From a virus, in the IMG/VR virus record IMGVR_UViG_3300023210_000107, positions 1-35,738 of that record: a DNA stretch of 35,738 nucleotides; one strand, written 5' to 3'. Positions within the stretch are counted from its first letter, which is position 1. Every line of letters starts with the position of its first letter. Positions 1-29,827 of this stretch are shown in pieces. Both the position numbers and the translations under genes were made by a program. Below the pieces are notes generated by a model, which worked only from the letters and a program-made list of their open reading frames with translations, was not told the DNA's origin and made no database searches.

Positions 1-3000
1 TAAATTTGTAGAACCTTCGCTAAAACCTCCTTCAAGGTTAGGCATTGTGTATAGCACATTACTTTTAGTACGTGCTAACGTGTCATCAAAATCAAATACT
101 CGTATTTTTTTAGGCGATTGAGACCATTTAATACTTCTAGCGTTATTAATAGCCTTTTGCTGAGTCTCAATGTTTTTAACCTCTTTAAAATCAATAGCTT
201 TGCTAAATTTTATTTGATTTTTTATAGCTTCAGATCTTGCGTCTACTAATTCTTTCGCAGGCCTTAAGTCATAAGCATATACAAAAGACTGGTCCGCTTC
301 AGGAAGTAAGTATATCCTTAAATCTTTGTAAGGATTATTTTTTCCAAAAACATCAACAAGATCTAACGTTTCTCTATTTTCTAGCCATTGGTCATGGAAT
401 TCTAAAATCTCATCCACTTTAAAAGCTAGTTCTTTGTCTGTGTTATTTTCAAACCCAAGTTCTGCAATTTCGAACATGCTAGTACCATTGTCAGCTAAGT
501 GCTCGCCTTTCATGTTTCCTTGAGGACCATCTTTAAAGGTTATGTACTTTAGACCCGTTAAAGATCTAAGTCCAGCTGTTGCATTAGTCTGAGCCTGCAG
601 TATACTTATAAAAGACTGAGGAGAAATACTGCCGTCTTTAACAAGATTTACTAGATTCGTTATTATGTAATTAGCTAGTATTTTGTTTTGAACATTAGCA
701 GCTTCGATCTCTGGTATTAATTTTTTGTATTCCTCTATCTTATTATCTGCAGTTATATCTTTATTTAAAATTCTACTTATTTTACCCATAACTCCAGTTT
801 TAGAATTCATAGGTGAAATATCTTCTAATCTTAAATCAAGTGGAAGGTTTTTACTTTTAGGTTGGTCTTCTTTTAGCTTAACTAAAAAATCATAAAAATC
901 GCCAGTAGCGCCAGGTATAACCTCTCCAGTCTCTTTATCCTTCTTTGAAGCCGCAGAATCAAGTAATCTATTGAAGAAACCAAGTCCATCATAACCTATG
1001 ATATTAGTTACATCTGAACCTAAAGTGTTCGCTACAACTTTCATGTCTTTAGCTAAAGCTTTCCTAACACTTATGTCACTCTTCTTAGTGATAGCTCTTT
1101 TAACTAAGTCTTTAACGCTCTGAGGTATAACTTCTGAAGCTTGTATAGACTGCAAGAATCTAAGCTCTTTACCATCAGGAACTAATCCTTGGTCAAAAGC
1201 GCTTCTAACAACTTTACCAACTCCGTCAAATTCACTGCTCTTGTATATTTCGTCACTAAGTAATATTGTACCGTCAGCGTCTACAACTTCTTCAAAACCT
1301 ATGTCTAAGCTTTTTCTTAACAACTTACTCGCTGCTTGTCTAAATTTAGGGGAAGAAATAGAAAACTTAACAGTGCCTCTTTCAGATTGTCTAGCTACGT
1401 CTTCTACAAATGCGTCGGCTAAAACTACGCCTAAAGCTGCTTGATTGTTTTCAAAAGCTTTACTTACTTCACTGTTTTCGTCTTGTAACTCTTTGTTGAA
1501 TATCTCTAATGATATTTCTTCAGCTATAGCTTTAGCCATAGACTCTTTCTTACCTCGTATAGGAGCTCCTGAGGTCATCTTGCCATCAGCATCTATACTT
1601 ACATCCTGTAATACAGATCCAACGAAGTCAGCGTCGCTTAAAGCAGTAGCTATATTAGGTAGTCTTCTAACTATATCTCCTCCAGCAGTTTTTCCTAACT
1701 TGTTTGTCGATGTCTTCTCTCTATCTATAGTCTTACCTTGCCAATCACTTGTAAAGTTTGGTACAAATACAAAGTCTCCATAAGAATCTTTAACTCTTGT
1801 TCCATTAGAATCCACTTTATACGTACCTCCCACAGATTTTTGAATAGCCTTAGGAATCGCACCCATTAACCAAGTGGTTGTCATGTTCTCTAGTATTGCC
1901 TTCTTATTCTTTAACAACCATTTTTGTAGTTGTGCATCGGCTTTTCCACCCATAGCCTTTTTAAGATCAATATCAGCTTGCTTACCCATTGCTTTCTTTA
2001 TCTCAGCGATTAAAGGTGAAACCGATTTGTTTATAGAAACTTTAGCATCAAGCTTAGATTTTAATACTTTTAAAACTTTAGTTAATTTACCGCCAATTTC
2101 TTTAATAGTAAAACCGGGTAAAACGCTACTGTCAATTAGTTTCCTAAATTTAGGTCTATCTTTTTTAACAGCATCATCTTCAGCAATTTTACTCTGTGCT
2201 TCTTTAGTATCTAAGTCTGTAGTTTTCTTAGCGGCTTCACTTTCTTTAAATAAAGCTTTTTTAGCATCTAACTTAATGAAATTTGTGTTAGCGAATATAA
2301 ACTCGCCAAAAGTAATGGGCTCTTTGTTTCCAGCTTTCTTTCTTTCTGCCGCTGGATCATAGTTAACTAATCGATCTTGTATTCCCGCTATAGCTTTTTC
2401 TCCAACTTCTTTACTAGGTGATTTTGACTTTATGTAATTGCTAATAACACCGTTTGGTAAGGTAGCATTGTATATAGGATTAAAAACTTTAGGTGAAAAA
2501 TAGTCTGCTTGAGTTTTAACACTAGGTGGAACTAAATTGTTAATTTCGTTCAAAACAGATTTAGGTCCTTCTTTGGAGTATTTTTCAGTAACAGCAGTTT
2601 CCCCAATACCTGAAACCGTTTTACCTATAGTATCGTCTAATGTAATACCGGAATTATTATCATAATTTAACACGGTGTTATATATACTGTTGGGGTTATT
2701 TTTACCAATTAAAGCGTATTCAACAGCGTTTGCTTTTTCAGCGGTACCAAAAACGTCGTTAGAAGATTTGTTTATTAGTTCTTGTACTCGTGACCTGTAG
2801 GCCATAGCTATTTTTAAAGCTTTTTTAGGTAATTCTAGTTTAGAACTATTGTATTCATTTTGTATGTTTGCTTCAAAATTTGCGTTATATAAAAACGCAC
2901 TAGTGCTTCCAAGTTTTTTACCAACTTTTGCTCCTTCTTTAGCTGCTTTAGTTAATCCTTTACCTAATCCTTTTCCTTCAATTACACTTTTATTAAAATC

Positions 3001-6000
3001 TTTTATAAAATTAAATACGTCTCTACCTGAATTAAAAGTAACATTCATACCAGCTCTTTGTAACCCTTGGCGAATAAAATCACCTATTTTGGTAAAAGCG
3101 TTTTCTTCAAACGATATAAATCCTTGGGTTAATCCTTCTGAAAATATAGTAAGTAATTCCTCAGCTTTTACGCTAGACGGAGAATCCTTATAAGCTTCGA
3201 GTCTACCTTGAATATAAGCATTGTTAAAACTAATGTCATTAGGTAACATTTTATCAATTTCAGATCTAAGAGCATTGCCCATTTGTACTATTGCTCCAGG
3301 ATTGTCTGTAATGGTTTTAAGCAACACTCCATGTAGTAATTCATGCTGAGCTGTGGTTACTGCTTTATTTGTACCTGCAACGTCTTCATTAACCGCTATG
3401 GTTTGAGTGCCATCCGCATTTTGTATAATAAATCCGTTTTGAGCCAAAGCCTCATTCACATTTATTAAATCTTCTTTATTAGCTTTGCTTTTTCCTTTGT
3501 TTCTTTCTTCTCTAGCTGCATTTTCTTGAGCTATTAGTTCACTAATTTTTGCCTTGTTACCTTTTTCAAAAGTAATACCTAAAGCGTCTGCTATTTTTTT
3601 AGTACCAGCTTCTGTTCTTTCTTCTATAATTGAAGATTGTTGCTTAACTTGAGAAGCTTCTATTTTAGCATCAATAGCTTCAATTTCTGCATCAATCCCC
3701 TTTGTGTATCTTTTATCTGCTTTTGCTTTTCTCTCTAGTAATTGATTTTTTTGTATAAGCAAATCTATTTGCTCGTCATTCATTACATCAGGAGCAACAT
3801 TAATAGCTTTTATAATATCGCCTCCATAGTCTATAGCCGAATTTATTTCGTCTAATTGGCGTTGAGCAGCGTCTTTACTTTGTTGAGTTCTAGCTCTTTT
3901 TAATTTAGTCTCTACAACTTTTTTGCTTTCTTGTAAAGTTTTTATTATATCAGCACCTTGAGTTCTGTATTGATTATATATTTTATTTTTAAAATTACTA
4001 AATTGAGTAGGAGCCATTACCGTAGAAGTACCACCTGCTAAAAGGATTGTTCCTCCTATGGTTTCAAATTGAGTGTCAAAATCAGTAAATTTGGTTTCAT
4101 TACTTAAGCCTACAGTTATTTTAGCTATATCTTGAAGTAATAATTCAGCCTCTTCCTCACCAATCTCTCCTAAAAGACTATTAACAAACTGCTTTCCTAC
4201 CGCTTTTCTAGCTTCTTTTGTAGTTGCTTTCTTTAAGTTTTCTACAACGGTATTTAACATAGATTTACCTATGTTGGTTTTAAAGAAATTTACATCAGGC
4301 ATGATACCCTGCACTACAGCCGTAGCAGTGGATGCCATGCTTGAATAAGCAAGAGCTTGACTGTCATCTAACCCCATTTGCTTACCTTCCATGTAATTAT
4401 CATTAACGGTTGCTCTAAAAGCAAACCCGCCCATTTTTATTTTATTTATGGTGCTAGCACTTGCCCCCATTCCTTTTAATAAAGAGTAAGCGTTTTTTAG
4501 ACCTTTCATATCACCTTTACGGGCAGCTAGCGCTACTCCTATCGTAAAAGGTAACATATTAGCTATAGTTTTGCTACCAGATCTAAAAGATATCCCATCT
4601 TCAGATAAACTCCCGCCTTTAGGACTAATTCCTAGGTAATTAAATGAGTTGTAGTTAGAAAACATGTCGCTTACCATGTCTAATCTAGAATACTCATCTT
4701 CTTCAAAAGTACCCATACCTGTAAAAGCAAGTCTATTTAACCAAATAGCACTACCAACAATGGATTCCCCAATGAGTTTTTGTCCTCCTTGGACAAGGGT
4801 GCCTATAAAATCTGCTGTACCTCCAACAAAACCACCATCGATATGTCTATCTCTCCATTCAATAAAATCTTCAGTCATTTGAAAATTGTTATCAAAAACC
4901 TGCTCTCCTATATTAAAAGCTAGTTTAGTAGATGTTGTTTGTATTTTATCAGCTGCGTTATACAATATAGTTTGAGCAGCGGTAGCGGCTTCAGGGGTTA
5001 CTGAGCTTGCTTCGTCTGCAGCAAATATTATTTCTTGAGCTTTATCGTATTCGTTTAAATACTCTTCGTAAGATTGATTCAGTACTTTACTTTTTGCTTC
5101 GGTAATAAGCATTTCTTTTCCCTCAAGATTAAGATTGCCATCAAGAGTTTTACCTTTTAATTTATTGTCAGAATATAATTTATTTATTATTTCATCTTCG
5201 ACTTTTTGGTCAAATTCAATTTGTTCTTTTTTGTTTTCGCCTAAGTCGCTTGAGCCAAAACTACTATAAGTATCTTTGGTTTTAGCCGTAGATACTTCTT
5301 TTAGCAGTAATGTTTGCTCGTCATATCTATCTTTTTCGAGAGAATTTTGAAATATGTTTGCTCTTTTGTTGGCATAGTTACGCTCTACCGCAGCAAACTC
5401 TTCTGGAGTTATTTCTCCTGCTTGAAGCTTTGCTTGCCCATCATTCCAATAAGCGTCAGTTTCGTTAATTTTTTGAGTAAAGTTATTTCTTGTTCTAGAC
5501 GCAGCGGTTCTATTATTCTCTAATTCGTTTTGCTTGTTATATTCAAGTTGATTAATTTGAGATTGTATATCCGCAGATTCTGTGGACATTATGGGATAAT
5601 CTTTTTGTTTATTTTTTAAAAATTCAAGTTCATTATCATAAGCGGATAAAGCCGGTTTGTTTTTATTAAACCCAGGATCTTCATATAAGCTTATAATGAA
5701 ATCGTTAGGACTGTAATTAGGATTATCTAGTTTAGGCTCTTTTTTGTTAGCCTCAAATATTTCTTTTTCTTCTTGAAAAGAGTATTGAGATTCTGTAGGT
5801 CCACCTGGTCGATTTATCCATTCAGATAATTCATCAGCCGTTAAGTTTGGATTTTCATCAATGTATCTGTTAGTTTCTTCTTCCCAGGCTTTTATAGTAA
5901 CCGGTTCACCAAATTCATCCAATTGCACTTCAGCATCACCTAACCTCGATACCGAAAAATCTTCTGCCGAAGTTGATCCCGTATTTTCTGACTCCACATT

Positions 6001-6165
6001 CGGATCCGCAGTTGTAGAGTCTGTCTTCTTTCCCGGCACTAAAACAGCGCCACGCTTAGCCAGGTATTCTTCAAAAGTTACTCCGTTCTGCTCTGCTGCT
6101 ATCTTTAGAGTAGACGCAGGTACTTCTCTGTTGTTTATTTTATATATCGGGTCTGTTGATGCCAT
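1..6165 (-). CDS. Giant virion/ejection protein with HELLH and HAD motifs, partial
   Basis: The frame stays open from an ATG at 6165 to the window edge, giving 2055 codons without a stop, so the C-terminus is missing. The N-terminal part is acidic and looks disordered. Weak hydrophobic Gly/Ala-rich stretches lie near residues 440-480, 535-555 and 695-710 and could touch membrane. An HELLH sequence at residues 941-945 fits a zinc metallopeptidase (HExxH). At the edge, IRVFDFDDTLARTKS contains DxDxT (D2025, D2027, T2029), motif I of the HAD phosphatase superfamily, so a HAD domain probably begins here. It is the last and largest of three consecutive genes, matching the place of T7 gp16, and I infer an internal protein ejected with DNA. 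The leader between this gene and the previous stop is made of ATTTW pentamers. No transglycosylase motif was recognised. The coding call is firm; the function is inferred. Confidence 0.85.
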   Translation of the reverse strand, partial: MASTDPIYKINNREVPASTLKIAAEQNGVTFEEYLAKRGAVLVPGKKTDSTTADPNVESENTGSTSAEDFSVSRLGDAEVQLDEFGEPVTIKAWEEETNRYIDENPNLTADELSEWINRPGGPTESQYSFQEEKEIFEANKKEPKLDNPNYSPNDFIISLYEDPGFNKNKPALSAYDNELEFLKNKQKDYPIMSTESADIQSQINQLEYNKQNELENNRTAASRTRNNFTQKINETDAYWNDGQAKLQAGEITPEEFAAVERNYANKRANIFQNSLEKDRYDEQTLLLKEVSTAKTKDTYSSFGSSDLGENKKEQIEFDQKVEDEIINKLYSDNKLKGKTLDGNLNLEGKEMLITEAKSKVLNQSYEEYLNEYDKAQEIIFAADEASSVTPEAATAAQTILYNAADKIQTTSTKLAFNIGEQVFDNNFQMTEDFIEWRDRHIDGGFVGGTADFIGTLVQGGQKLIGESIVGSAIWLNRLAFTGMGTFEEDEYSRLDMVSDMFSNYNSFNYLGISPKGGSLSEDGISFRSGSKTIANMLPFTIGVALAARKGDMKGLKNAYSLLKGMGASASTINKIKMGGFAFRATVNDNYMEGKQMGLDDSQALAYSSMASTATAVVQGIMPDVNFFKTNIGKSMLNTVVENLKKATTKEARKAVGKQFVNSLLGEIGEEEAELLLQDIAKITVGLSNETKFTDFDTQFETIGGTILLAGGTSTVMAPTQFSNFKNKIYNQYRTQGADIIKTLQESKKVVETKLKRARTQQSKDAAQRQLDEINSAIDYGGDIIKAINVAPDVMNDEQIDLLIQKNQLLERKAKADKRYTKGIDAEIEAIDAKIEASQVKQQSSIIEERTEAGTKKIADALGITFEKGNKAKISELIAQENAAREERNKGKSKANKEDLINVNEALAQNGFIIQNADGTQTIAVNEDVAGTNKAVTTAQHELLHGVLLKTITDNPGAIVQMGNALRSEIDKMLPNDISFNNAYIQGRLEAYKDSPSSVKAEELLTIFSEGLTQGFISFEENAFTKIGDFIRQGLQRAGMNVTFNSGRDVFNFIKDFNKSVIEGKGLGKGLTKAAKEGAKVGKKLGSTSAFLYNANFEANIQNEYNSSKLELPKKALKIAMAYRSRVQELINKSSNDVFGTAEKANAVEYALIGKNNPNSIYNTVLNYDNNSGITLDDTIGKTVSGIGETAVTEKYSKEGPKSVLNEINNLVPPSVKTQADYFSPKVFNPIYNATLPNGVISNYIKSKSPSKEVGEKAIAGIQDRLVNYDPAAERKKAGNKEPITFGEFIFANTNFIKLDAKKALFKESEAAKKTTDLDTKEAQSKIAEDDAVKKDRPKFRKLIDSSVLPGFTIKEIGGKLTKVLKVLKSKLDAKVSINKSVSPLIAEIKKAMGKQADIDLKKAMGGKADAQLQKWLLKNKKAILENMTTTWLMGAIPKAIQKSVGGTYKVDSNGTRVKDSYGDFVFVPNFTSDWQGKTIDREKTSTNKLGKTAGGDIVRRLPNIATALSDADFVGSVLQDVSIDADGKMTSGAPIRGKKESMAKAIAEEISLEIFNKELQDENSEVSKAFENNQAALGVVLADAFVEDVARQSERGTVKFSISSPKFRQAASKLLRKSLDIGFEEVVDADGTILLSDEIYKSSEFDGVGKVVRSAFDQGLVPDGKELRFLQSIQASEVIPQSVKDLVKRAITKKSDISVRKALAKDMKVVANTLGSDVTNIIGYDGLGFFNRLLDSAASKKDKETGEVIPGATGDFYDFLVKLKEDQPKSKNLPLDLRLEDISPMNSKTGVMGKISRILNKDITADNKIEEYKKLIPEIEAANVQNKILANYIITNLVNLVKDGSISPQSFISILQAQTNATAGLRSLTGLKYITFKDGPQGNMKGEHLADNGTSMFEIAELGFENNTDKELAFKVDEILEFHDQWLENRETLDLVDVFGKNNPYKDLRIYLLPEADQSFVYAYDLRPAKELVDARSEAIKNQIKFSKAIDFKEVKNIETQQKAINNARSIKWSQSPKKIRVFDFDDTLARTKSNVLYTMPNLEGGFSEGSTNL

Positions 6166-6183: not shown

Positions 6184-7410
6184 TTATAATCCTATTGCGT
6201 TTAAATCTAATCTGTCTATAACCTCGTCTAGAGTAAACTTTAAATCAACATATTCTCCTGGTCTTATTTCTTTATAAAGAGGGTCGCCTGCTGCGTCTGT
6301 TATCTCGTAGTAAGGATTATCACCTTGGTTCACTACCTGAGCAGATAACTTATTGCCTTGAGTTCTAGCTGTGATTTTTTTACCGCTTTCAAGCAGTTTT
6401 AGTTTTCTCTGCACATCGTTTAACCGTAATCGCTGAGCAGGGGTTAGAGCGGCTTGAGTTGCTTTGTTTTGCTTTGCTTTATATTCCCTTGAGCCATCTG
6501 CAAAAGCTTGATTTCTAGCTATAAGTAGTCTGGATTTTACGTTTTCCCTTGCTTGTTCTATAGTTATATTGCCAGCATCTAAGGCGTTTCCTACGTCATC
6601 TAGTTTTACTTCCGACTTAAAGTCGTATATGATAGATCTTAAGGTATCTTCGTTTTGCAAAGCGCTGTCTAATGACTGGTTGTATGAATCTTGCGCATAT
6701 TGATTATCGTTTTTTCCACTAGCTCCTTTGTTGTAAGCGTTTTCACTCACTTTGTTTAAGCTATTTAAAAACTTAGTGTCCTTAACAAATGGTTCAGCCA
6801 TGTCTCTATAATCTATAACATTGCCGTCAACTTTAAAACCGATGTTTCCACCTTCTTGTATTTGAAAAGGAGAGTCATAACGAGAATCACTTCTACCGTC
6901 GCCATCTCCATCGTAAAAGCCATAAGCAATCATAGACTCTCTGGATCTGCTAGGATCATTACCGTTAGAAAACAAACCTTGCTGCATTGCGGAAGCATAG
7001 TCTACTTTTCCTTTTTTGTAAGCACCTAACTGAGAGGCTAAATTGGTAAAACTGTTATTAACACCTTGCATAATATCAACTGCTTCTAAATACTCTGGAG
7101 ATGTAGCATCTGTAAACTGAGCTGCTCTCTTTGCTGCGTCAGCGTACTTTGAACGCTCAGCAAGTAGAAATTCACGCATAGACTTAGTTTCAGCAGGAGT
7201 AAAGCTAGTGAAATCCATGTCGGTTTTCATCTTTGCCATGTATCCGTTAACTTTCTGCTGAATAGATTCGTTTGCTTTTGTTCTAAGAGGGGTTTGAGTT
7301 GCTGAAACAGTAGAGTCTCCCGCTGCAATTCCCGCCCCGATCGCGGCACCCACATCTAAAAATTTCTTGCTTGTTTGAGCAGCCCCTTGTATTAATGCGT
7401 TATTGGCCAT
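6184..7410 (-). CDS. Putative internal virion (ejection) protein, 408 aa
   Basis: This 408-residue protein has no enzyme motif that I recognise. It is largely helical and polar, with many Gln, Asn, Lys and Asp residues. Its N-terminus (residues 3-29) is a small-residue amphipathic stretch, starting NNALIQGAAQTSKKFLDVGA, that is closely matched in the 154-aa protein encoded at 27305-27769. It sits between a Q/A-rich 224-aa protein and the giant protein, the place of gp15 in T7-like phages, so I infer a component of the injected core. The stop of the upstream gene lies 1 nt before its ATG, which suggests translational coupling. Other possible roles are a tail or head protein of unknown class. 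Confidence 0.8.
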   Translation of the reverse strand: MANNALIQGAAQTSKKFLDVGAAIGAGIAAGDSTVSATQTPLRTKANESIQQKVNGYMAKMKTDMDFTSFTPAETKSMREFLLAERSKYADAAKRAAQFTDATSPEYLEAVDIMQGVNNSFTNLASQLGAYKKGKVDYASAMQQGLFSNGNDPSRSRESMIAYGFYDGDGDGRSDSRYDSPFQIQEGGNIGFKVDGNVIDYRDMAEPFVKDTKFLNSLNKVSENAYNKGASGKNDNQYAQDSYNQSLDSALQNEDTLRSIIYDFKSEVKLDDVGNALDAGNITIEQARENVKSRLLIARNQAFADGSREYKAKQNKATQAALTPAQRLRLNDVQRKLKLLESGKKITARTQGNKLSAQVVNQGDNPYYEITDAAGDPLYKEIRPGEYVDLKFTLDEVIDRLDLNAIGL

Positions 7411-7411
7411 A

Positions 7412-8086
7412 TTATGGTTTTTTCGTTAAATCCTGTACTGTTGTTGCGGGTGGCATACCGAACATGCCCTGCCAGAAGTCGCCGCTTTTACCTAAGCCTG
7501 GTATTTGTGGTAAAACCCCTGCCGCCATACTACCAACACCCCCCAGTATAGACTGTGTAGCTTGTTGCTGAGCTTGATTCGCAGCACCTAATCTTTGCTG
7601 GGACATTCCAAGCAGAGTATCTGTTTTGTCTTTTTCAGCAGCTCTAGAAGCATAAGCTCCCTGAAGTTCTTGAGACTGCAGCTGACCAGCCATTTGTCTT
7701 TCCGCCATTTGATTACCGGCTTCTTGCTGTCCAATACTGGCTGAGGCGCTTTGCGCATTTTGCGCTTGCTGGTTGGACATTGATTGTGCTAACGCTGCAA
7801 TACCTGAACCGCCAGCTGCGCCTTGAAGAGCGTCCATAGTATTTGCCATACCGGCTTGCTGCTGTTGATTAACAAAGTCAGCTTGCTGCGTATTAACAGT
7901 TAAGTCTTCGTATACGTTTTCCTGATTAGCAGCCAAATTAGACGTATCCGCACTTTCCATACGAGATTTATTTTTGTCAAATTCAGCTTGAGCCGCTTTT
8001 TGTTCTCGTCTTCTTGCTCCGCCACCTATGAGGCCACCGGCAATGCCTGAAAGACCTTGAACGGCGCTTAATATTCCTATTGGCAT
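7412..8086 (-). CDS. Putative internal virion protein, Q/A-rich, 224 aa
   Basis: The protein opens with a hydrophobic glycine-rich segment (ILSAVQGLSGIAGGLIGGGA, about residues 4-23), then becomes a long Ala/Gln-rich helical region (about 25-175) and ends with a Gly/Pro-rich tail. A glycine-zipper-like start followed by Q/A-rich helix is the usual look of small ejection proteins such as T7 gp14. Its place immediately before the 408-aa and giant proteins supports that reading. It is inferred to be packaged in the capsid and to help form the DNA channel through the host envelope. The intergenic region just upstream (8087-8118) is AT-rich and carries a 12-bp sequence also found upstream of groEL. 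Confidence 0.75.
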   Translation of the reverse strand: MPIGILSAVQGLSGIAGGLIGGGARRREQKAAQAEFDKNKSRMESADTSNLAANQENVYEDLTVNTQQADFVNQQQQAGMANTMDALQGAAGGSGIAALAQSMSNQQAQNAQSASASIGQQEAGNQMAERQMAGQLQSQELQGAYASRAAEKDKTDTLLGMSQQRLGAANQAQQQATQSILGGVGSMAAGVLPQIPGLGKSGDFWQGMFGMPPATTVQDLTKKP

Positions 8087-10028: not shown

Positions 10029-13000
10029 TTAAGGTTGATTATTAGTAAAACATGAAGGATCCGCGAAAATACGTACTTTAAACTGAGTAACGTTAACATC
10101 TCCTGTGATTGTAGTAGGCTTACCTATTCCTTGAACAGAAAATTCAGTTGTGTCTATATTATCTACTGTAGTAGCATCTCCTTTTATGTTGTTGTAGTAT
10201 TTTCCTTCTTTGTTTATAAATTCAGGTATGGTTCCACTTTGTAAGTTGGTTTTTGTGCTACTAACCCACCATCCAGGCGTTGAAATAACACTTGTAGGAT
10301 TTGGCCCACCATTAGATTTGATAGTTTCTATCTCGCTAATTGAATAGTTTATGCCATTATAAACACCACTAGAAATGCTATACACATTACTTTTAGCGGC
10401 AGTGCCTGTATAATTTATTGTTTTAAATCCTTTTACAGAAAGAGGGTTTTCATTAGATATCAGAGTTAAAGTGCTTTGATACTGAACTCCATAAAAGTTG
10501 TTGTACAAATCATTTTTACCATGCTCATAAATCAATCCTCCCTTAAAGGTATAAAATTTTGTATCTATAGATATGCCGTTTTCTGGAATATATGATTTTC
10601 TACTAGACCATCCGTTTATGCTTTCAGAAAAAGACAATGTAGTTTTTAAACCATACTTATCAGACCATTCGTTAGCTAAGCTATTTAGCGTTAAATTATA
10701 TGTACCATTATCGTTATTATAGCAACCTAGTATCTTATTATTTAAAGGAAGATTGTCTTGAAAGAAATCATCTAATCCGTAATTACTGATTGGTGTTACC
10801 CCATCCATAGACAGCCTAAGTACTTTTCCTTTCGCATTATCTGTAAAGTAAACTCTATAGCCATAATTTGCAAAAGATTCCGGGTTTTTACCAATACCAA
10901 ACATTCCGAAGCTTGAAGGTATTATAGCTTGACCCAAAACTCTATTAGCAGCAGTTAACTGAGAATTCCCATCTGCATTGTATATTGCATCCTTATCTGC
11001 TAGTATTTTAACCACCTTATCCTCGCAAAATGCTAACAAATCTGTTTCTCTAGCAAATAATTTCTGAATAGGTCCACTCTGGGGATCTAATGATTTAGTT
11101 ATAGCTTCTGCTTGTATAAATTGATTTAATTCATTTAATCCAGAAATTGAATTAAAAATACCTGAAAATATAAGATTATTTCTTAAATACTCTTCTTCGT
11201 AAGGAGTGTCTAAGACAGCGTTTGCTTTCGTTCCCGCGCTTATATAAGGAGCATTAAAATCATCTCTAATTCTATTTGATTCTACACCATTACCAAAAGA
11301 ATAGCAGTTGAACCAAGGGCTTGTGTGTTGATTATTGTATTGAGCTATCGGCAAAGCGTTTGATATTTCATAATAAATATCTAACTCTGCTTGCTCTGCT
11401 GGTTCTGTTTCGAATATAGCTGGATTAATTGATGATATTTCACCTGAATCTACTTGTTTTAGAATATCTATAGTAACACTAGGCTCACCTATTCCATTAT
11501 AAATTTCAACACCGTCAACAAAAACACTGTTACCTCCAGACGCTTGGTTTATTTGCCAAGGAGAAATCGACGCCTCTAATGGCTTGTCTAGCCTTACATA
11601 AGACCTTACATAGGTTGATCCACTTGTTTGTTCAAATTCGTGTATATATAGAATTTCATAAACGGTTGGGTGAGTCGAAAACCTTATTTTTGCCCCTACA
11701 TTGAAGGCATTACCGAATTCAGCAGAACCAACGCTCGTTAATTTTCTTTCAAAAACAAAATCCCAAGCTTCGCATGAATCGTAAGGTATTTGACAAAGAC
11801 TTCCAAAAGCACCCGTATCATTTGGGTATTGAGTTTGCATTCCTCCGAGATTCCTATTAGTATCTATATATAGCCTAGTATTGCTACCAATCTGAGTACC
11901 TGCGGCATTTTGTAACGGACCACCACCCCCAGAGAAAATTTGATACCTATCAGAGCTAAAGTCCAATCGAACTATAGTAGTCGAAGCAGGAATATATTCT
12001 TGATTAGGAGTAAAATTATTCATTAAATAATTACTCTTTTCTAGCCTTACAAAAAATCTACCTTCGTATTGCCCTTTTCCTAAAGCTTGAAAGTCCTCAG
12101 CTATTTCAATTCTATTCTCAATGCTTACTAATGCAGAGTTTGGTATTGTAGGATCAGTGTATAGGAAATTAATATCTGTTGTAAAAGGAGGTGAGATATT
12201 TACCTTAAGTTCTGTGTGGCTTCCGGTTTGATCCGTTTCTACATTTGTTATTTCGTAAAACTGACTTTGATTAGTTCCGCTAGAAAACCTAACGTATTTA
12301 CTTGTCTGCCAAAAAGCCAACGTTGCATCGCTAACACCACTGTTTCCTGATTCGTTGTTTATTAAAAAAGTGCTATATCCAGGAACTGGTGTTGCTCCAG
12401 GTATTTTCCATTCAGCCTGTGTTCCGCTACCAAATTGTATATCAAAAGAATAGTCTTTGGAAGATTCTACTCTTTTAGTTTTCCTTAATTCTAAAGGGGC
12501 TTCCGGTTTTTTAGTTAATACCTTAAATTTATTTTGAGGGTAGTTTTTAACAGCTAAAGAAGAGTCATTTTGCTTCTTTAGTATTAAAAAATCACCTTCT
12601 TGAACTTTGTTTGTTTCTGCAGAAGGCATAGATATCCATACGCTTTCTCCATCTTCGGATTCATATAACCTGTCCGCTACTACATTATAGTAAAAAGCAG
12701 ATGGGTCCTTTATAAAAAACTTAAATGTTTCAAACATCTCTGTTCCGTCAGGATTCTTTGGGCTGTATGAAGATAATTTTACTTTTATAGAATTAGCTGT
12801 GTCAGACAATTCATTCGTAAGATCTAAAACCCCTGAAGGATCCGTGAATACAGGCGTTTCTCTTCCATATTTGTCTTTAAAAACAACACCTATTTGATAA
12901 GTTCTAATTGATTTTATAGACTTGTAAGGTTCTCCTACGTTTAGTATAGGGTTCGGATCAATTAAAGTGTTTACAGAGTCGAACTTTAAGCTAGAGGATA

Positions 13001-14585
13001 CATTATAATTTTGCAAATAGTTTCCATAAATTATTCTATTAGATATAGCTTCTTGGGATTTTGCTTTCCTAGGCACGTTATCCCAAGGCCTAAGTATCTG
13101 ATTAGAAGGCAGTAGTGAATATATTAATTCACTAATTACTTCAAACACTGTACCAAGCGATGTATTTACTATGTCAACACCTGTTGCTGACGAAGGTGTT
13201 AATGAATTATCTTTAGCTATTATATTTATTGTTTGTGTTGCAAAAACAGTTATTGTCTGGCTTTCATTTTTTGTGTTTAAAAAAGTAAAATTAACAGAGT
13301 TTGCACTATTGTTTGTTATTTTATGATCAATATAGTTTATATTTAGGTCTTCAGGAGATAAGCTTTCTACTTTGTAAATAGCGTTTACCCCATCTTGCTT
13401 GTACAATATGTCTAACTCTTCCACACCTTTAGGCAATGGTGAGTCAAAACCTCCTAGTACAATTCTTTTCACACCGTTGATCATACCCTTATTCCATCCG
13501 TTTTTTGCATTGTATTCAAAAGAGCTCGGCAAAAAGGCTACCTCGGAAAAAGGAGAAAATGGGGAGTATTGATTGTCTGTATATTTGTACCTATATCCAA
13601 ACCTTGGAAATTTTAATTCAAAAAGTATTTTAGAACCTTGTATATCTACTTGATATGTAAAACTACCGCTAACTAATTCCGCTGTACCACTTTGCAACAC
13701 TCCATTTAACACTGTGCCTCCATTGGTTATAGAAACAACACTTATGATGAAGGAATATATATCAGGTTCGCCGTCACTATCTATAGGAGCGTAGCCTTCA
13801 GAGCTATCTAGGTCGCATGTGAACGATAGGATGTCTCCTGCGTTAGCGTTTATAGGAGAACCTAAGTTTATAGCTAAGGATGTTCCTGGTTCAACAGAAG
13901 CACCAATCGCTCCGCTTGTAACATTGTCTGTAAAATTATATACCGCAGAAGTTGTAGTGCTGCCTGTTCCTAAGTTGTCACTAAGGGTCAAACTAGGCGC
14001 CGTGAGTGGCCCTGGCTTTATAACAACAACATCGCTTTCAACAAAATCTCTCCCATATATCTGGGAATGAGTTAAAAAATTAGGAGTTGAGTTTTTCCAG
14101 TTTTTTATGTTTATGCTTTTAGGTTCTTCTTGATTGTCTGTCCAAAATAAAAGATCTTCAATTATATTTATACCTGTTATCAAATAATCTTCTGAAAAGT
14201 TAAGTACACCTTGGGTATCAACAATTATAGGCTTTATAATACTTGTATTTTTGTCGTACTCCGCTACAACACTTGCTGTGTCAGACGCAATAAACCAATA
14301 CACTTTTTCATCGACGTTATCTGCAATCGACCCAATACACACTGGATTCGAAAGTGAATCTATATAGTCACTGCTCCACTGATTATATGTATTAGTAGAA
14401 GCATTGAACGATTTGTTTTTTAACTCGAAATTTCCTTTTATATTTTCTATAGCGCCAGTGTCAGAACCTTCTGATGAGGAAATACTTATGTTAAGAGCAT
14501 CTCTGTACTGTCCGTTGGGTACAAGTCTCTCATCAAGATCTTTGTTCATTTTCCCTCCGGTAAATGTATGTATAAGTTCTGCCAT
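10029..14585 (-). CDS. Giant tail-barrel / stabilization ('muzzle'-type) protein, 1518 aa
   Basis: The N-terminus carries FTGGKMNKDLDERLVPNGQY followed by RDALN, which I recognise as the signature of the tail stabilization protein of crAss-like and related Bacteroidota podoviruses. The rest is long, beta-rich and rich in Asn, Ser, Thr and Tyr, as expected for propeller and barrel domains. In the phage phiCrAss001 structure the comparable large protein forms the muzzle that closes the tail. It follows the ring-protein genes directly (5-nt gap), consistent with a place at the tail tip. The length is within the range I expect for the family. The family call is fairly secure; the exact structural role is inferred from relatives. 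Confidence 0.85.
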   Translation of the reverse strand: MAELIHTFTGGKMNKDLDERLVPNGQYRDALNISISSSEGSDTGAIENIKGNFELKNKSFNASTNTYNQWSSDYIDSLSNPVCIGSIADNVDEKVYWFIASDTASVVAEYDKNTSIIKPIIVDTQGVLNFSEDYLITGINIIEDLLFWTDNQEEPKSINIKNWKNSTPNFLTHSQIYGRDFVESDVVVIKPGPLTAPSLTLSDNLGTGSTTTSAVYNFTDNVTSGAIGASVEPGTSLAINLGSPINANAGDILSFTCDLDSSEGYAPIDSDGEPDIYSFIISVVSITNGGTVLNGVLQSGTAELVSGSFTYQVDIQGSKILFELKFPRFGYRYKYTDNQYSPFSPFSEVAFLPSSFEYNAKNGWNKGMINGVKRIVLGGFDSPLPKGVEELDILYKQDGVNAIYKVESLSPEDLNINYIDHKITNNSANSVNFTFLNTKNESQTITVFATQTINIIAKDNSLTPSSATGVDIVNTSLGTVFEVISELIYSLLPSNQILRPWDNVPRKAKSQEAISNRIIYGNYLQNYNVSSSLKFDSVNTLIDPNPILNVGEPYKSIKSIRTYQIGVVFKDKYGRETPVFTDPSGVLDLTNELSDTANSIKVKLSSYSPKNPDGTEMFETFKFFIKDPSAFYYNVVADRLYESEDGESVWISMPSAETNKVQEGDFLILKKQNDSSLAVKNYPQNKFKVLTKKPEAPLELRKTKRVESSKDYSFDIQFGSGTQAEWKIPGATPVPGYSTFLINNESGNSGVSDATLAFWQTSKYVRFSSGTNQSQFYEITNVETDQTGSHTELKVNISPPFTTDINFLYTDPTIPNSALVSIENRIEIAEDFQALGKGQYEGRFFVRLEKSNYLMNNFTPNQEYIPASTTIVRLDFSSDRYQIFSGGGGPLQNAAGTQIGSNTRLYIDTNRNLGGMQTQYPNDTGAFGSLCQIPYDSCEAWDFVFERKLTSVGSAEFGNAFNVGAKIRFSTHPTVYEILYIHEFEQTSGSTYVRSYVRLDKPLEASISPWQINQASGGNSVFVDGVEIYNGIGEPSVTIDILKQVDSGEISSINPAIFETEPAEQAELDIYYEISNALPIAQYNNQHTSPWFNCYSFGNGVESNRIRDDFNAPYISAGTKANAVLDTPYEEEYLRNNLIFSGIFNSISGLNELNQFIQAEAITKSLDPQSGPIQKLFARETDLLAFCEDKVVKILADKDAIYNADGNSQLTAANRVLGQAIIPSSFGMFGIGKNPESFANYGYRVYFTDNAKGKVLRLSMDGVTPISNYGLDDFFQDNLPLNNKILGCYNNDNGTYNLTLNSLANEWSDKYGLKTTLSFSESINGWSSRKSYIPENGISIDTKFYTFKGGLIYEHGKNDLYNNFYGVQYQSTLTLISNENPLSVKGFKTINYTGTAAKSNVYSISSGVYNGINYSISEIETIKSNGGPNPTSVISTPGWWVSSTKTNLQSGTIPEFINKEGKYYNNIKGDATTVDNIDTTEFSVQGIGKPTTITGDVNVTQFKVRIFADPSCFTNNQP

Positions 14586-24568: not shown

Positions 24569-24843
24569 TACTTAGATCTGTTTTCAGCAAAGCCTTTGAA
24601 CTCTATTGTTTCAAGCTCTTTCTTAGGTTTGTTCTCTAATACTCTTTCTTCCTCCTCTATACGTGTTAGTATTTCAAAAGCGTCAAATATAGCTAGTTTT
24701 TTTGTAGCTGCGGCATTTTTAAGTTTATCCGCAGTTAGGTCGTCGTCTGAATCTACAATAGGCTCTTTAGCTACTTTTATTAACTCCTCAACTGCCTTTT
24801 GCCCAGCTAGGATTATATTCCTCTTCGTTTCCTTTGTATTCAT
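24568..24843 (-). CDS. Small helical protein upstream of terminase, 91 aa
   Basis: The protein is short, charged and almost entirely helical (AVEELIKVAKEPIVDSDDDL, then AIFDAFEILTRIEEEERVLE). I recognise no named family. Its position directly before the terminase large subunit, ending in a one-base overlap with that ATG, is where a small terminase subunit would be expected, but no DNA-binding helix-turn-helix is visible, so that role is only a possibility. Its first 56 nt overlap the end of the upstream gene in another frame. No later ATG exists in this ORF to shorten the overlap. Confidence 0.7.
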   Translation of the reverse strand: MNTKETKRNIILAGQKAVEELIKVAKEPIVDSDDDLTADKLKNAAATKKLAIFDAFEILTRIEEEERVLENKPKKELETIEFKGFAENRSK

Positions 24844-25378
24844 ATTTAATTGTGATTGAATTGGCGGGTACTCGGTATAACCTCTGCCCTTCTATTACAA
24901 ACTCATATTCTGAGTTCGGCTTAAAACCTACTAATGACTCGGTTTTTATTTCGTCATTACCTAGTTTTACAATACCTATTAAGGGCTTCTCAAATGCTGC
25001 AGAAAACATCTTGTCTTCTTTTATGGGTTTAATAAAACAAAACCCTTTTAAAGCTCTCCATTCATCATCTCTTTTAAAAGCGTATATTTGATCAGCTTGT
25101 ACGGTATAAACATCTTCAGCTAAATAATTTTTACTGTCCTTCTCATTACCTCTAACGTCTCTAAACCTTCTAAAAACATTATGATGCACAATTACGTCAT
25201 CTCCTTCTTTTAATTCTTCATTACCAACTAGAGGTAAATTAAGTATTGTCCCTACTCTATTCGTGTAGCTGTGATTCTGTAAATCCGTGTTGAGTAATAA
25301 TGTTTGCCCTTCTATTTTTTTAAACCCAACAGTTCTGTCGCCTTTTGGTTTTACTAAATAATTAAAAATGCTTTGCAT
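24788..25378 (-). CDS. Candidate tandem GroES-fold co-chaperonin-like protein, 196 aa
   Basis: Two halves each read like a GroES chain. The first (about residues 5-105) has a start strand YLVKPK, a loop with QTLLL, then RVGTIL, KEGDDVIVHH and VQADQIYAFK, in the order of the GroES core (mobile loop, G-x-V turn, GD-V-V strand, final D-I-L strand). The second (about 110-182) repeats it: GFCFIKPI, PLIGIVKLGN, ESLVGFKPNSEYEF, EGQRLYRVPANSITIKYE. The second half lacks an evident mobile loop. The phage also encodes a GroEL and a classical GroES nearby. If correct, this would be a double-domain co-chaperonin in the manner of chloroplast Cpn20, or a GroES-derived virion or assembly factor. The domain reading is by eye only and could be a different small beta fold. 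The coding call itself is solid. Confidence 0.6.
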   Translation of the reverse strand: MQSIFNYLVKPKGDRTVGFKKIEGQTLLLNTDLQNHSYTNRVGTILNLPLVGNEELKEGDDVIVHHNVFRRFRDVRGNEKDSKNYLAEDVYTVQADQIYAFKRDDEWRALKGFCFIKPIKEDKMFSAAFEKPLIGIVKLGNDEIKTESLVGFKPNSEYEFVIEGQRLYRVPANSITIKYEYKGNEEEYNPSWAKGS

Positions 25379-25857: not shown

Positions 25858-25947
25858 TTAATTTAATTTAATTGCTACTGTTTTTGTTTTAATTCCTGTT
25901 GCTTTTGTAATTTTTTCTATTGTATATCCTAACCCTTTTGATGCCAT
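25858..25947 (-). CDS. 29-residue mini-gene, probable remnant
   Basis: An ATG at 25947 shares one base with the preceding stop (TAATG) and opens a 29-codon frame: MASKGLGYTIEKITKATGIK, then TKTVAIKLN, ending in TAA at 25858. The opening resembles, from memory, the N-terminus of small phage proteins with a GLGDTIEKITKATGI pattern that normally continue into a Cys-rich body. Here that body is absent and the last codons are made of the A/T pentamer leader of the next gene. A deletion that fused the start of this gene to the next gene's leader would explain it. The alternative is a genuine micro-protein. Confidence 0.5.
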   Translation of the reverse strand: MASKGLGYTIEKITKATGIKTKTVAIKLN

Positions 25948-26330
25948 TAACAATTCCATTTGTCTAAAGCTAACTTCTTCCTGGTTGGTTCTCCATTAGG
26001 TTTCTTCATAGGCCCTGGCATCCCACTCATTCTTGCGCAAAACGATTTTCTACGCTTAGCAGCTTTACTTCCTTTTTTGAGTTTAGATGGTTTTGTAGTA
26101 ACCGCTGTTTGCAGTTTAGATCCAGGGTTGTCTCTTTTATAAGCATCAACACCTTTTTGATTCAAGCCACCAGTTTCTGATTTACCTTCCTTACGTGTCC
26201 AAGCCGCTGTCTTTTTAGCAGGTGACTTTGCGCAACTTCCTTTTTCCTCTTTCTTTTTACCAGGCACCGGAGAGTACCCTTCCCAACACCTTTTTAGTAT
26301 TGGGGATTTAGGTTCCTGTTTGTACGCCAT
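25947..26330 (-). CDS. Basic low-complexity protein with SPxK motifs, 127 aa
   Basis: The protein is strongly basic. It begins MAYKQEPKSPILKRCW and contains a second motif, CAKSPAKKTAAW. The C-terminal two thirds (WTRKEGKSETGGLNQKGVDA, then KRRKSFCARMSGMPGPMKKP) resemble a domain family I recall from cyanophage and pelagiphage proteins (DUF6321-like), with Cys, Arg and Lys clusters and a terminal Cys. This composition would suit nucleic-acid or capsid-interior binding. The start shares one base with the stop of the 323-aa gene. It belongs to the cluster of neighbouring proteins sharing SPxK(Q) motifs. Confidence 0.75.
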   Translation of the reverse strand: MAYKQEPKSPILKRCWEGYSPVPGKKKEEKGSCAKSPAKKTAAWTRKEGKSETGGLNQKGVDAYKRDNPGSKLQTAVTTKPSKLKKGSKAAKRRKSFCARMSGMPGPMKKPNGEPTRKKLALDKWNC

Positions 26331-27301
26331 TATTTGAAGTATTTCATTTTTAAAGGAGTAGTCTTTTTAAAGAACTTATTACTCTTTTTATTTGTTGATG
26401 TTACTTCGTTTGGATTTTTCTTTGTTACAACATCTTCAGGCGTTGACTGTCTTTGTTCAAAAGCTATTTGCTCCTTTGGGGTTCCTAGTGATTTCTTTGT
26501 AGCTTCTTCTGTTACATTAAATGTACCACCTCTATATCCACTAGCTCCTCGTGAAACTCCTTTGGAATAAACATCATATTGACCTTGAGACGCCTTCATG
26601 TTCCTAGTTGACTCTGCTAAATTTGCTGTTGCATTTCTAAATCTTCTCTCATGACCTTTTAGGGCTTTACCGTCCTTGCCGGTGTGTTTAGCTAGCCTAC
26701 TCTGGTATCTACCGATCTTCTTTTGAGAGTCTGAAATATCATCACTCAGTTTTTTCATTCGTCTAGCTTGAGATCCAGCTTCCCAGCTTTCAACCATACC
26801 TCTTTTGCCTTCAACTTCAAAATCCTTAAGATTTATCTTTTTATCCGGCCCTTGAGTTGTTGTATCTGGCTCACGTTTACCAGTATCGACTTTAGCTCCT
26901 GTCTTTTTACCTTTTTTGCTTCCGTATTTAATGTGGTAATTATCAATACCGCCTAATTTCTCAATTTCGTTAGCTCTCCAATCCAATTGGTCCTGGGTTA
27001 AGCCTTTCAAGCTTTTTCCAGTGTCTCTAACGTCGTCGTAGATTTTCTTCCCTTGTTGAGTTATCAGTTCTCCAGCGCTTTTAATTTCAACTTCAACAGG
27101 CTTGCCATCAATCATTTTCTGTTTGAATGGAGAGCTTTTCATTGCGTATCCCTTTATTTTACTTGGTGATGGAATATCTCTAGTTTGATTATTGCCGTGG
27201 ACGCCGGCTTTCCCTACGTTTAGTAAAGGTTCTGTTACCCCTTTCTTTTTGTTGAATAAGCCAGTGCTTACCCTTGCTGTAATTGGTGTGTTTTTTGACA
27301 T
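26330..27301 (-). CDS. Basic repetitive protein with SPxK motifs, 323 aa
   Basis: This is a Lys-rich, helix-forming and largely disordered protein. Motifs of the block appear as IPSPSKIKGYAMKSSPFKQK near residues 43-62 and TTPLKMKYFK at the very C-terminus. The middle (SWEAGSQARRMKKLSDDISD, then SQKKIGRYQSRLAKHTGKDG) suggests a coiled coil followed by basic loops. I recognise no enzyme domain. It is transcribed just before the 127-aa gene (one-base overlap) and 3 nt after the 154-aa gene. A virion-internal or DNA-binding role is inferred from composition and neighbours. Confidence 0.7.
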   Translation of the reverse strand: MSKNTPITARVSTGLFNKKKGVTEPLLNVGKAGVHGNNQTRDIPSPSKIKGYAMKSSPFKQKMIDGKPVEVEIKSAGELITQQGKKIYDDVRDTGKSLKGLTQDQLDWRANEIEKLGGIDNYHIKYGSKKGKKTGAKVDTGKREPDTTTQGPDKKINLKDFEVEGKRGMVESWEAGSQARRMKKLSDDISDSQKKIGRYQSRLAKHTGKDGKALKGHERRFRNATANLAESTRNMKASQGQYDVYSKGVSRGASGYRGGTFNVTEEATKKSLGTPKEQIAFEQRQSTPEDVVTKKNPNEVTSTNKKSNKFFKKTTPLKMKYFK

Positions 27302-27304
27302 GGT

Positions 27305-27769
27305 TTAGTTTTTTGTAAGTGTTGTTGGAGCTAGCGTAAGATCCATTTCTGAAGTTGATGGGATAATGGCCCCTTTAGCAAACTGAGCATCAACGCCTTT
27401 CACTTCTTTGTGTTTATTTTGATTACCCTCTTTATTATTTGTGCTTTTATTTTTGCTCGTAAGGTCTTGGTGTCCAAGATTTGCAGCAGCAGGTTCTTGC
27501 TTTTGTTCGAAAGCCCTACCTACTTCAGCACCGGCATCAACGAATCTTTTACCTGTTTGGCCAGCTCCAGTAACTAGCGCTTCATTAATTTTTAAAGGAG
27601 ACTTTGATTTCTGAGTTATAGGTGAACACCTTTTTTTAGCAGGGTTATTTTCAAAACCTCCAGCTCCTCTTCTCGGCCCAGGAGCTGATACTTCTTGAAA
27701 TCCATTGCGGTTATTACTAGCTGCAGACTTTTTAAGTTTTGAGGCTTGACCTCTGAATGTAATTGCCAT
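27305..27769 (-). CDS. SPxK-motif protein sharing a segment with an ejection protein, 154 aa
   Basis: The N-terminal 60 residues are basic and disordered, with CSPITQKSKSPLK ending the stretch. Residues 62-88 (NEALVTGAGQTGKRFVDAGA, then EVGRAFE) match residues 3-29 of the 408-aa putative ejection protein at 13 of 27 positions, with mostly conservative changes elsewhere. The rest is polar and low in complexity (KNKSTNNKEGNQNKHKE). The shared helix suggests both proteins bind the same partner or pass through the same channel. No catalytic motif is visible. Confidence 0.7.
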   Translation of the reverse strand: MAITFRGQASKLKKSAASNNRNGFQEVSAPGPRRGAGGFENNPAKKRCSPITQKSKSPLKINEALVTGAGQTGKRFVDAGAEVGRAFEQKQEPAAANLGHQDLTSKNKSTNNKEGNQNKHKEVKGVDAQFAKGAIIPSTSEMDLTLAPTTLTKN

Positions 27770-27771
27770 AA

Positions 27772-28125
27772 TTATGATTGTTTATATGCTTCGTTCTCCC
27801 ATTCGAAATCAGGATGTCCCTCGTTCATAGTAGCTCTCTTGTAAACTCTAGCGGGTGATCTTGTATCCCTTTTCCAAATAACTGAATCTTCAGAGTATTG
27901 TAATCTACCTGAAGCCATTTGATCTAAATGAACTTTTTCGTGCGCAACAGCCTTTTCAACTTCTTTATCAGACAGTTTGGAGTTAACAAAAATAGTGCCG
28001 TCACGGTTAGCCTCAGCCTCAACCCCACTTTCAAGGTCATCTTTTATAATGACAGGAGTGCCGAACTCAGAGGTCTTCTCGTGAATACCGAATACTTCTC
28101 CGTGTGATTTTAGTTTGAATGCCAT
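27772..28125 (-). CDS. Minimal HExxH zinc metallopeptidase-like protein, 117 aa
   Basis: I start at ATG 28125 (MAFKLKSHGEVFG), which lies 10 nt after the upstream stop and has the same MAFK opening as the 220-aa protein. An earlier ATG at 28173 would overlap the upstream gene. The motif AVAHEKVHLDQM gives H62-E63-x-x-H66, preceded by a strand-like IFVNSKLS, and a third glutamate ligand could come from WENEAY (E110 or E112). This is the plan of a compact gluzincin-type peptidase. It could mature virion proteins of the neighbouring block or attack host peptides. It also carries RSPAR, a variant of the block's SP motif. Activity is not proven. Confidence 0.7.
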   Translation of the reverse strand: MAFKLKSHGEVFGIHEKTSEFGTPVIIKDDLESGVEAEANRDGTIFVNSKLSDKEVEKAVAHEKVHLDQMASGRLQYSEDSVIWKRDTRSPARVYKRATMNEGHPDFEWENEAYKQS

Positions 28126-28135
28126 TGTTTTGCTT

Positions 28136-28465
28136 TTATTGTTTTTTTGCAGGTATTTTTTTGCTTTCCCCAAATGGAGTGTATCCTCCTTTTTCCGCTT
28201 TTTTCTTAGCCTCAGGAACTTTTTTGTCCATTTTCTTATTAGTCTCAGCTTTTATTTTAGCTTGTTTCTTTTTGTCACCCTTAGCTCGCTCCATTCTCTC
28301 GTCTGCCAATAACTCTAATCGTTTGCTTTCTTCGAATGCCGCTGTTTCGCCTGCGTCGATACCCATTTGCTTAGTCTGCTTAGTCTGCTTAGTCGGTGAT
28401 ATTACTGATTTTTTACTTCCACCTAAACCGTTTGGTCCAATTCCTTTAAATCCTGAGTATGCCAT
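28136..28465 (-). CDS. Lys/Ala-rich small protein with SPTKQ repeat, 109 aa
   Basis: After a glycine-rich start (MAYSGFKGIGPNGLGGSKKS) comes VISPTKQTKQTKQMG, where one TKQ tripeptide is repeated three times. The rest is a highly charged single helix (ESKRLELLADERMERAKGDK, then KKQAKIKAETNKKMDKKVPE) and a basic tail. The composition suggests a nucleic-acid-associated or capsid-internal protein, though none is recognised. It is packed between the 220-aa gene (2-nt gap) and the metallopeptidase-like gene. Confidence 0.7.
   Translation of the reverse strand: MAYSGFKGIGPNGLGGSKKSVISPTKQTKQTKQMGIDAGETAAFEESKRLELLADERMERAKGDKKKQAKIKAETNKKMDKKVPEAKKKAEKGGYTPFGESKKIPAKKQ
28368..28394 (+). repeat. Three 9-bp tandem repeats encoding (TKQ)3
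   Basis: The unit TGCTTAGTC is present three times in perfect tandem. On the minus strand it encodes Thr-Lys-Gln three times directly after Ser-Pro, so slippage would add or remove KQ motif copies without breaking the frame. Confidence 0.85.
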
Positions 28466-28467
28466 TG

Positions 28468-29130
28468 TTATTTATTTTTTGTTTTAAGATAATTCCTTTG
28501 AAAGTTCTTGAGTTGTTCTTGAGCTACATCACTACCCATTTCATGATGGCCTCCTTTAGGGCCAACAACAAGTCTACCTGACTTGTTTGGATCTTTTACA
28601 GTAATCAATGTAGATTTATAGCCTTTTTTGTCCTTACTATCGTTTCCGGAAACTTTTTGTATTCTTTTATTTGATTTACTTTCTATATTTGTAACCTCGC
28701 TTCTACTGCTTCTTTTAACATTATCTTTATTTCCTTTCGTTGAGGTTTTTGATTTTACAATATGCTTTTGTTCTAAACCTTTTTCGTAGTCCCCTTGCGT
28801 ACTTTGTTTAGCTGGAGATTTTGGTTTATTATGCTTTGCTAACTCTGCGGTGGTAGTCTTGCCTTTTTTGATAGTACCGCTTTTTAGACCTTTCTCTAAA
28901 GGCTTTGTGGTTTTTTGTATTTTACCTGCTGGAACCGCTTTGTCTACTGTGTTTACCTGCTTAGCTGGAGATTTTGCGGCTATAGCTTTAACTATTACTT
29001 CTGGTAAGTTTTTCTTTTGACTAGCTGTTTGTTTAGCAGGCGATGCTGCGGCTTGCTGTATGCCTCGAGGTGCTGCGTACCGTCCAACTGATTTTAAAGT
29101 TGGTGATTTAGGGTTCATTTTAAATGCCAT
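28468..29130 (-). CDS. Basic protein with four SPxK motifs, 220 aa
   Basis: The protein starts MAFKMNPKSPTLKSVGRYAA, then contains ASPAKQTAS, AKSPAKQVNT and PKSPAKQSTQ, spaced by Lys/Thr-rich low-complexity sequence. The C-terminal part (KGYKSTLITVKDPNKSGRLV, then VGPKGGHHEMGSDVAQEQLK) looks folded and ends in a helix. S/T-P-basic motifs are known in histone tails for binding the DNA minor groove; SPAK is only a partial match. It follows the winged-helix-like gene by 2 nt. It is the clearest member of the SPxK block. Function is unknown. Confidence 0.75.
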   Translation of the reverse strand: MAFKMNPKSPTLKSVGRYAAPRGIQQAAASPAKQTASQKKNLPEVIVKAIAAKSPAKQVNTVDKAVPAGKIQKTTKPLEKGLKSGTIKKGKTTTAELAKHNKPKSPAKQSTQGDYEKGLEQKHIVKSKTSTKGNKDNVKRSSRSEVTNIESKSNKRIQKVSGNDSKDKKGYKSTLITVKDPNKSGRLVVGPKGGHHEMGSDVAQEQLKNFQRNYLKTKNK

Positions 29131-29132
29131 AA

Positions 29133-29573
29133 TTATCTTTCTTTGTCTTTTATCATATCATCAATAGCTTTGTTATAAACTTTATCCGTATATGTTTTAT
29201 TCTTGTAAAACGTACTTCTAGCTGACGTTGGTAAATCCTCTTCCCCTAGTAGTATTCTGTAAATTCTGTTTATTAAACTTTTACATTTGTGTGAAGTACT
29301 ATATATATTAGTCTTCATGGTAGTTCTATTTCTTTTTCTCCAGACATCGATCCAACCCCCTCGCCTTAATCTCTCCCATCTTGCTTTATCCCAAGAGTAT
29401 GTGTAAACACCGTCTATGAAATCATTACGTGTAAATTGCTTTTTGCAATCCAAATATATTAATAATTCAATATCAGCGTCTTTAAGGTTGTAAGTTTTAC
29501 AGGCCCATTTTCTAACAAGCCTGTAATACTTAAGTAAATTCATATCTCTTAAATCACTTGAGCCTAGTCTCAT
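29133..29573 (-). CDS. Winged-helix-like small protein, 146 aa
   Basis: The order of helices (LKDADIELLIYLDCKKQFTR), a Trp-rich turn (WDKARWERLRRGGWIDVWRK) and a basic hairpin (RNRTTMKTNIYSTSHKCKSL) fits a MarR-like winged helix-turn-helix, and similar small proteins occur in many marine phages. It may regulate late genes or serve as a DNA-recognition factor in packaging; no second domain helps decide. Its ATG overlaps the groES stop by 4 nt (ATGA), so translation is probably coupled to the chaperonin genes. Family assignment is by pattern only. Confidence 0.65.
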   Translation of the reverse strand: MRLGSSDLRDMNLLKYYRLVRKWACKTYNLKDADIELLIYLDCKKQFTRNDFIDGVYTYSWDKARWERLRRGGWIDVWRKRNRTTMKTNIYSTSHKCKSLINRIYRILLGEEDLPTSARSTFYKNKTYTDKVYNKAIDDMIKDKER

Positions 29574-29827
29574 TCTACTAAAACTACATCACCTATTGTA
29601 ATTACAAAATACAATTTATCATTCCATTCTATTCCGTGCCCTGCGTGTTTGTCATATCTAACAACATCGCCTTCTTTGAGAAAATCTATCTTATCTCCAA
29701 CACTAATTATGTTACCCTTTAAGTACCTAACGTCGTGATTTTGATTTTGTGTTATTTCAAGGCCTCCTACTGTCTTCGGAGCTTCCTTGATTTTGTCGAT
29801 TATAATAAAGTGATTAACTGCGTTCAA
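29570..29827 (-). CDS. groES: GroES co-chaperonin, 85 aa
   Basis: The chain has the GroES plan: N-terminal strand FIIIDKI, a mobile loop region about residues 17-35 with KTVGGLEITQNQN in place of the usual GG-IVL, then LKGNIISVGDKI, LKEGDVVRYDKHAG and a final strand VITIGDVVLVE. At 85 residues it is shorter than the bacterial protein of about 97. It caps GroEL during folding. Its first 14 nt overlap the end of groEL, so it is translated after groEL, opposite to the bacterial groES-groEL order. It should work with the phage GroEL, possibly also with that of the host. Confidence 0.88.
   Translation of the reverse strand: MNAVNHFIIIDKIKEAPKTVGGLEITQNQNHDVRYLKGNIISVGDKIDFLKEGDVVRYDKHAGHGIEWNDKLYFVITIGDVVLVE

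Follow-up and report, generated by a model that had tools for sequence, protein, structure and literature searches.

We found that two otherwise unrelated proteins of an uncultured virus share a 27-residue segment that is specific to these two proteins and conserved in the families of both, and that with homologues included the resemblance lies far beyond chance. The window, i.e., the whole stretch of 35,738 nucleotides that we analyzed, is a linear record with its main genes all on the minus strand, and its source is a marine phage with a crAss-type podovirus gene block. Our leading reading, to which we give a probability of roughly 0.45, is that the segment acts in head loading, as a docking helix that takes both proteins to one common binding site.

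A segment shared by proteins A and B

Protein A (154 aa) is encoded at 27305..27769 and protein B (408 aa) at 6184..7410, both on the minus strand and both confirmed as open reading frames. The segment common to them comprises residues 62-88 of A (NEALVTGAGQTGKRFVDAGAEVGRAFE; 27506..27586, minus strand) and residues 3-29 of B (NNALIQGAAQTSKKFLDVGAAIGAGIA; 7324..7404, minus strand). The original prediction had reported 13 identical residues out of 27 between these stretches, including GAxQTxKxFxDxGAxxG, and we reproduced this match on both confirmed frames. The span it gave for the B copy was exact, and for the A copy, which it had placed at 27501-27586, the encoding span is 27506-27586. The A copy is immediately preceded by SPLK(I) and the B copy by MA.

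We assessed the strength of the match within the record and then against homologues. In a search of the record itself, the segment match had an E value of 4.9e-5. For the window alone, the A-B pair gave a Smith-Waterman score of 75 (Gumbel P 1.8e-4) and ranked third among the 325 protein pairs, with P of approximately 0.06 after correction; at this level the match is borderline and at most suggestive. We fetched relatives of A and B from viral contigs, paired A with B through their common record, and judged profile specificity against the 6,063 distinct ORFs that the fetched loci together contain. A profile built from A segments only recovered B (best E 2.9e-12, median 5.2e-9), and a profile built from B segments only recovered 65 of 66 A copies (worst E 0.007), while the best unrelated ORF among the 6,063 reached an E value of 0.61 or 0.31 for the two segment profiles. 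Many of the fetched records are related, so the profile matches are non-independent; the specificity is nevertheless clear. In addition, a full-length profile of A only found B in all nine newly fetched records outside its training set. The original prediction had set two outcomes against itself, profile hits scattered over unrelated proteins and no conservation in homologues; the reciprocal profiles are specific, and neither outcome was found. The segment is absent from the cultured relatives MW202828, Panino, elemo, phi38:1, phi18:3, and Gundel_1; in those genomes, the first 60 residues of the protein at the position of B form no similar pair with another protein, and tblastn detected neither A nor B in cultured phages.

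Helix prediction and constraint on the segment

In the AlphaFold model of B, a helix covers residues 3-29 and is set apart from a better-predicted body (about 70-330); in that of A, a helix covers residues 58-86 of a chain that is otherwise largely unstructured. Both helix regions are predicted with low confidence (pLDDT about 30 for the B helix, mean 54 for A), and the models weakly suggest that the segment is helical in both proteins. The window copies are amphipathic, with a helical moment P of 0.003 in A and 0.03 in B, and a fold search with B gave no usable match. A common helix in two modules had been predicted: both families conserve the segment, constraint falls on the same columns in each, and the helix itself appears in both AlphaFold models at low confidence.

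Essentially all A proteins that we found retain the segment, and every B start retains its core. In an alignment of 26 homologues of A, the unit SPxK-[IM]-N-x-x-L-[VI]-x-G is near-invariant, and in nearly all A copies the core NxxL[VI]xG is followed further on by Fx[DN]. All B starts have LIxG and nearly all have the F and the D/N; they range from MANNALIQGA to divergent versions, for example LIRGEGAMRRAGGFVDAAKAIG, and most of the divergent ones are a few residues longer mid-segment. Per-column conservation is correlated between A and B (r 0.66, permutation P 3e-4, sequences unweighted), a value that excludes column 17, because rows of both proteins were chosen by D/N at that column, and for which A rows were chosen by their SPxK context, so that a few from the SPxK sites of a neighboring protein drop out or add noise. 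Confinement of conservation to one helix face was not significant (P 0.15 in A, P 0.22 in B).

Identical synonymous codons in the A and B segments make up 51% within genomes and 49% between genomes, which argues for constraint at the protein level rather than recent copying; given no within-genome excess of identical codons, we rule out recent gene conversion or duplication. The resemblance is thus old or convergent and maintained at the protein level. An initial test of within-genome matching between A and B, on eight clades, gave P 0.011; with 16 pairs, P was 0.11, and without two insertion lineages of odd length it was 0.60. We do not claim general coevolution of A and B, because the early signal faded (P 0.01 to 0.11) as genomes were added. 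The leftover covariation is anecdotal, consisting of a few central positions and, in one clade (records G011-G013), two additional residues at the same place in both the A and the B segment; record G058 breaks the concordance in segment length.

Genomic setting of the two proteins

Around B, the genes run from the muzzle through two others to that of a 224-aa protein, then B, and then a giant protein, all on the minus strand where located here. The crassvirus-type muzzle protein (1518 aa, 10029..14585) matches Pfam crAss_MUZ (3.9e-12) and crAss_MUZ_C (8.4e-9), and the muzzle C-terminal domain is also present in phi38:1 gp97. Among cultured phages, the group in which this muzzle occurs is closest to podoviruses of Cellulophaga, Flavobacterium, and Maribacter. 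The 224-aa protein (7412..8086) corresponds in position to crAss cargo C1 and phi38:1 gp99, with no significant BLASTP match to the latter, and by its position is a candidate binding partner of the segment. The giant protein (at least 2055 aa, 1..6165) is the next gene after B and runs off the window.

Phage phi40:1 has the same order in gp99, gp100, and gp101, all detected in virions by mass spectrometry (MS), and phi18:3 gp121, which is syntenic with B, was likewise MS-detected in the virion. B has no detectable homology to the syntenic proteins tested in cultured relatives, and we therefore base its status as cargo on position. The earlier description of B as an ejection protein is supported positionally, by its place in the muzzle block and by these virion-detected syntenic proteins, with sequence homology to them undetectable. 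In Pfam, B gave only a weak Spiralin match and a 323-aa protein of the window only a weak ZapG-like match; both were below the cut-off and were ignored.

The portal matches phrog_6547, the capsid candidate phrog_13704, and the large terminase phrog_6681. The closest annotated relatives of the portal are those of podovirus MW202828 (52%), Maribacter phage Panino (45%), and the Flavobacterium elemo phages (42%), and they also include Cellulophaga phages phi38:1 and phi18:3. A GroES-like gene (24788-25378, phrog_13932) stands beside the terminase, and a comparable additional GroES lies upstream of the terminase in elemo, Panino, and phi18:3; GroEL is encoded at 29814-31379, adjoined by a small GroES-like ORF at 29570-29827 that we recognized by eye.

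An accessory block of six small genes, A among them and most of their products basic, separates the GroEL/GroES genes from the terminase region (25947..29130, minus strand). A is separated from its neighbors by 2-3 bp and is on the same strand as the structural genes. It is basic, predicted by AlphaFold to be disordered apart from its helix, and matched by no Pfam or PHROG family; the 26-homologue alignment shows a conserved N-terminal module, MAITFRGQ...GFQ...R.G.GG, and SPxK linkers. Proteins of the block contain nine SPx[KR] motifs in 1,066 aa compared to 0.9 expected from shuffled sequences, a tenfold excess, whereas the rest of the window contains three in 10,742 aa (2.2 expected); the block also has PIT...SPxK strings. 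SPKK-like motifs bind DNA in some histones, so the proteins of the accessory block may be DNA-associated. Sperm histones rich in SPK(K/R) have been described (PMC9903204). We treat a possible association of the block with the virion or with DNA, which is drawn by analogy, as a lead. Two small basic proteins of the phi40:1 accessory region (gp69 and gp80) were MS-detected, and we found no homology between them and A or its neighbors. In record G058, a minimal, 96-aa form of A (L323) lacks the N-terminal module and keeps PITQK...SPNK plus the helix, which suggests that the unit of PIT...SPxK and helix can stand alone. The block of A also encodes a DUF6321 protein (25947-26330), a domain found in PHROGs at the C-terminal end of various long proteins (phrog_727, phrog_3477, phrog_10346). 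Conserved next to A is a small protein (27772-28173) that contains the motif HEKVH and matches metallopeptidases weakly (phrog_87, and DUF6782 below the cut-off).

Readings of the segment and known systems

Under head loading, B would present an exposed N-terminal docking helix ahead of its folded body, and the same helix would form the main helical stretch of A, a disordered basic protein, directly after an SPxK linker. Both helices would bind one site on a component of virion assembly, such as the portal crown, a scaffold, for which the candidate is encoded at 18647-19888, the 224-aa protein, or the giant protein. Binding during head assembly would then bring both the ejection protein B and the basic accessory protein A into the head. 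B would be the original owner of the motif and A would reuse it: all B starts retain the motif core, even in records without a detected A, which makes B the likely source, although this direction is tentative given that many records are fragments. We infer the common partner, the head loading, and the direction of borrowing. Several observations weigh against head loading, namely the putative status of A in the virion, the low helix confidence, the nonsignificant within-genome matching, the lack of detectable homology between B and cultured syntenic proteins, the absence of the segment from cultured phages, and the internal position of the A copy.

The two similar helices might instead associate with each other, in a homotypic or coiled-coil-like manner, with A acting as the assembly chaperone of B or as an adaptor to SPxK proteins or DNA. 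Their amphipathic window copies, the rough three-to-four spacing of conserved residues (L4, A8, F15, V22, F26), and the insertion shared by A and B in G011-G013 agree with such pairing, but the conserved glycines (position 7, often 19) are atypical of a coiled coil, the agreement in length breaks down in G058, and several B-bearing records, though fragments, have no detected A; we consider direct pairing unlikely. It is less likely still that the helices are fixed structural anchors on equivalent sites of an assembled part, e.g., the portal crown or the tail barrel lining, with A a permanent component rather than cargo. Short cargo helices that dock on rings are known, as a helical segment of C1 lines the tail barrel in phiCrAss001 and another part of C1 binds the portal wing (PMC10172136); any tie of the segment to portal or ring proteins is conjectural, however, and A in the virion is putative.

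A resemblance without common function, whether left over from shared ancestry or reached by convergence as a generic helix, would sit comfortably with the borderline significance of the single pair in the window, but the specificity among 6,063 ORFs, the strong conservation in both families, and the constraint on the same columns make it improbable. We give the lowest standing to counter-regulation, in which A, itself unpackaged, would compete for the receptor of the B N terminus and hold B or the giant protein back until assembly has reached the proper step: it would account for a copied helix in a disordered protein whose presence in the virion is putative, yet A is encoded within the same tightly packed gene run as the structural genes.

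We rank head loading above direct pairing and fixed anchoring, and by analogy a function like that of the T4 capsid-targeting sequence (CTS) appears to fit best. A broader version is doubtful and is offered as speculation: marine muzzle-type podoviruses may have a non-cleaved, position-independent loading helix, with the N-terminal docking helix of B reused in a disordered SPxK protein; in this way A, which may bind DNA, would accompany the ejection proteins into the head and perhaps the host as well. Head loading would bear on how podoviruses with a crAss-type tail select their head proteins; several cargo proteins of phiCrAss001 are known, and the part of its description available to us gives no loading signal (PMC10172136). 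A sequence-defined helix found in two proteins across dozens of records is a concrete peptide for binding and packaging tests, and it could flag more cargo proteins in uncultured phages.

The internal proteins of T4 are diverse yet have a capsid-targeting sequence in common (PMC3012670). This sequence, which Alt carries too, is an N-terminal propeptide of 10-20 residues that the prohead protease cuts off (PMC5694885). The segment is like the T4 CTS in that one short sequence occurs in at least two otherwise unrelated proteins, here with a proposed role in head loading. By membership it is not a T4 CTS, because the A copy is internal (residue 62), in contrast to the N-terminal B copy (residue 3). 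No prohead protease was recognized among the window proteins scanned, in a record that is itself a fragment.

The muzzle gene of phiCrAss001, gp44, opens a gene series comparable to that around B. In that phage the muzzle is followed by cargo C1 (gp45), C2 (gp46), and large RNA-polymerase-related proteins, and B is in the position of C2, between muzzle/C1 and the giant cargo proteins (PMC10172136). Searches of B by Pfam and by fold gave no sequence match and no meaningful fold match with which to relate it to the phiCrAss001 cargo. In phiCrAss001, 12 copies of a C1 helical segment line the tail barrel and another part of C1 binds the portal wing; C1 thus has portal- and barrel-binding segments of its own, and no accessory protein with a common segment is described in the portion available (PMC10172136). 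Among the Cellulophaga phages, phi38:1 gp100, which we tested, differs from B in having no detectable homology to it, and phi38:1 and phi18:3 lack the segment. Like B, phi40:1 gp100 and phi18:3 gp121 are encoded between a small protein and a giant protein, and both were detected in virions by MS.
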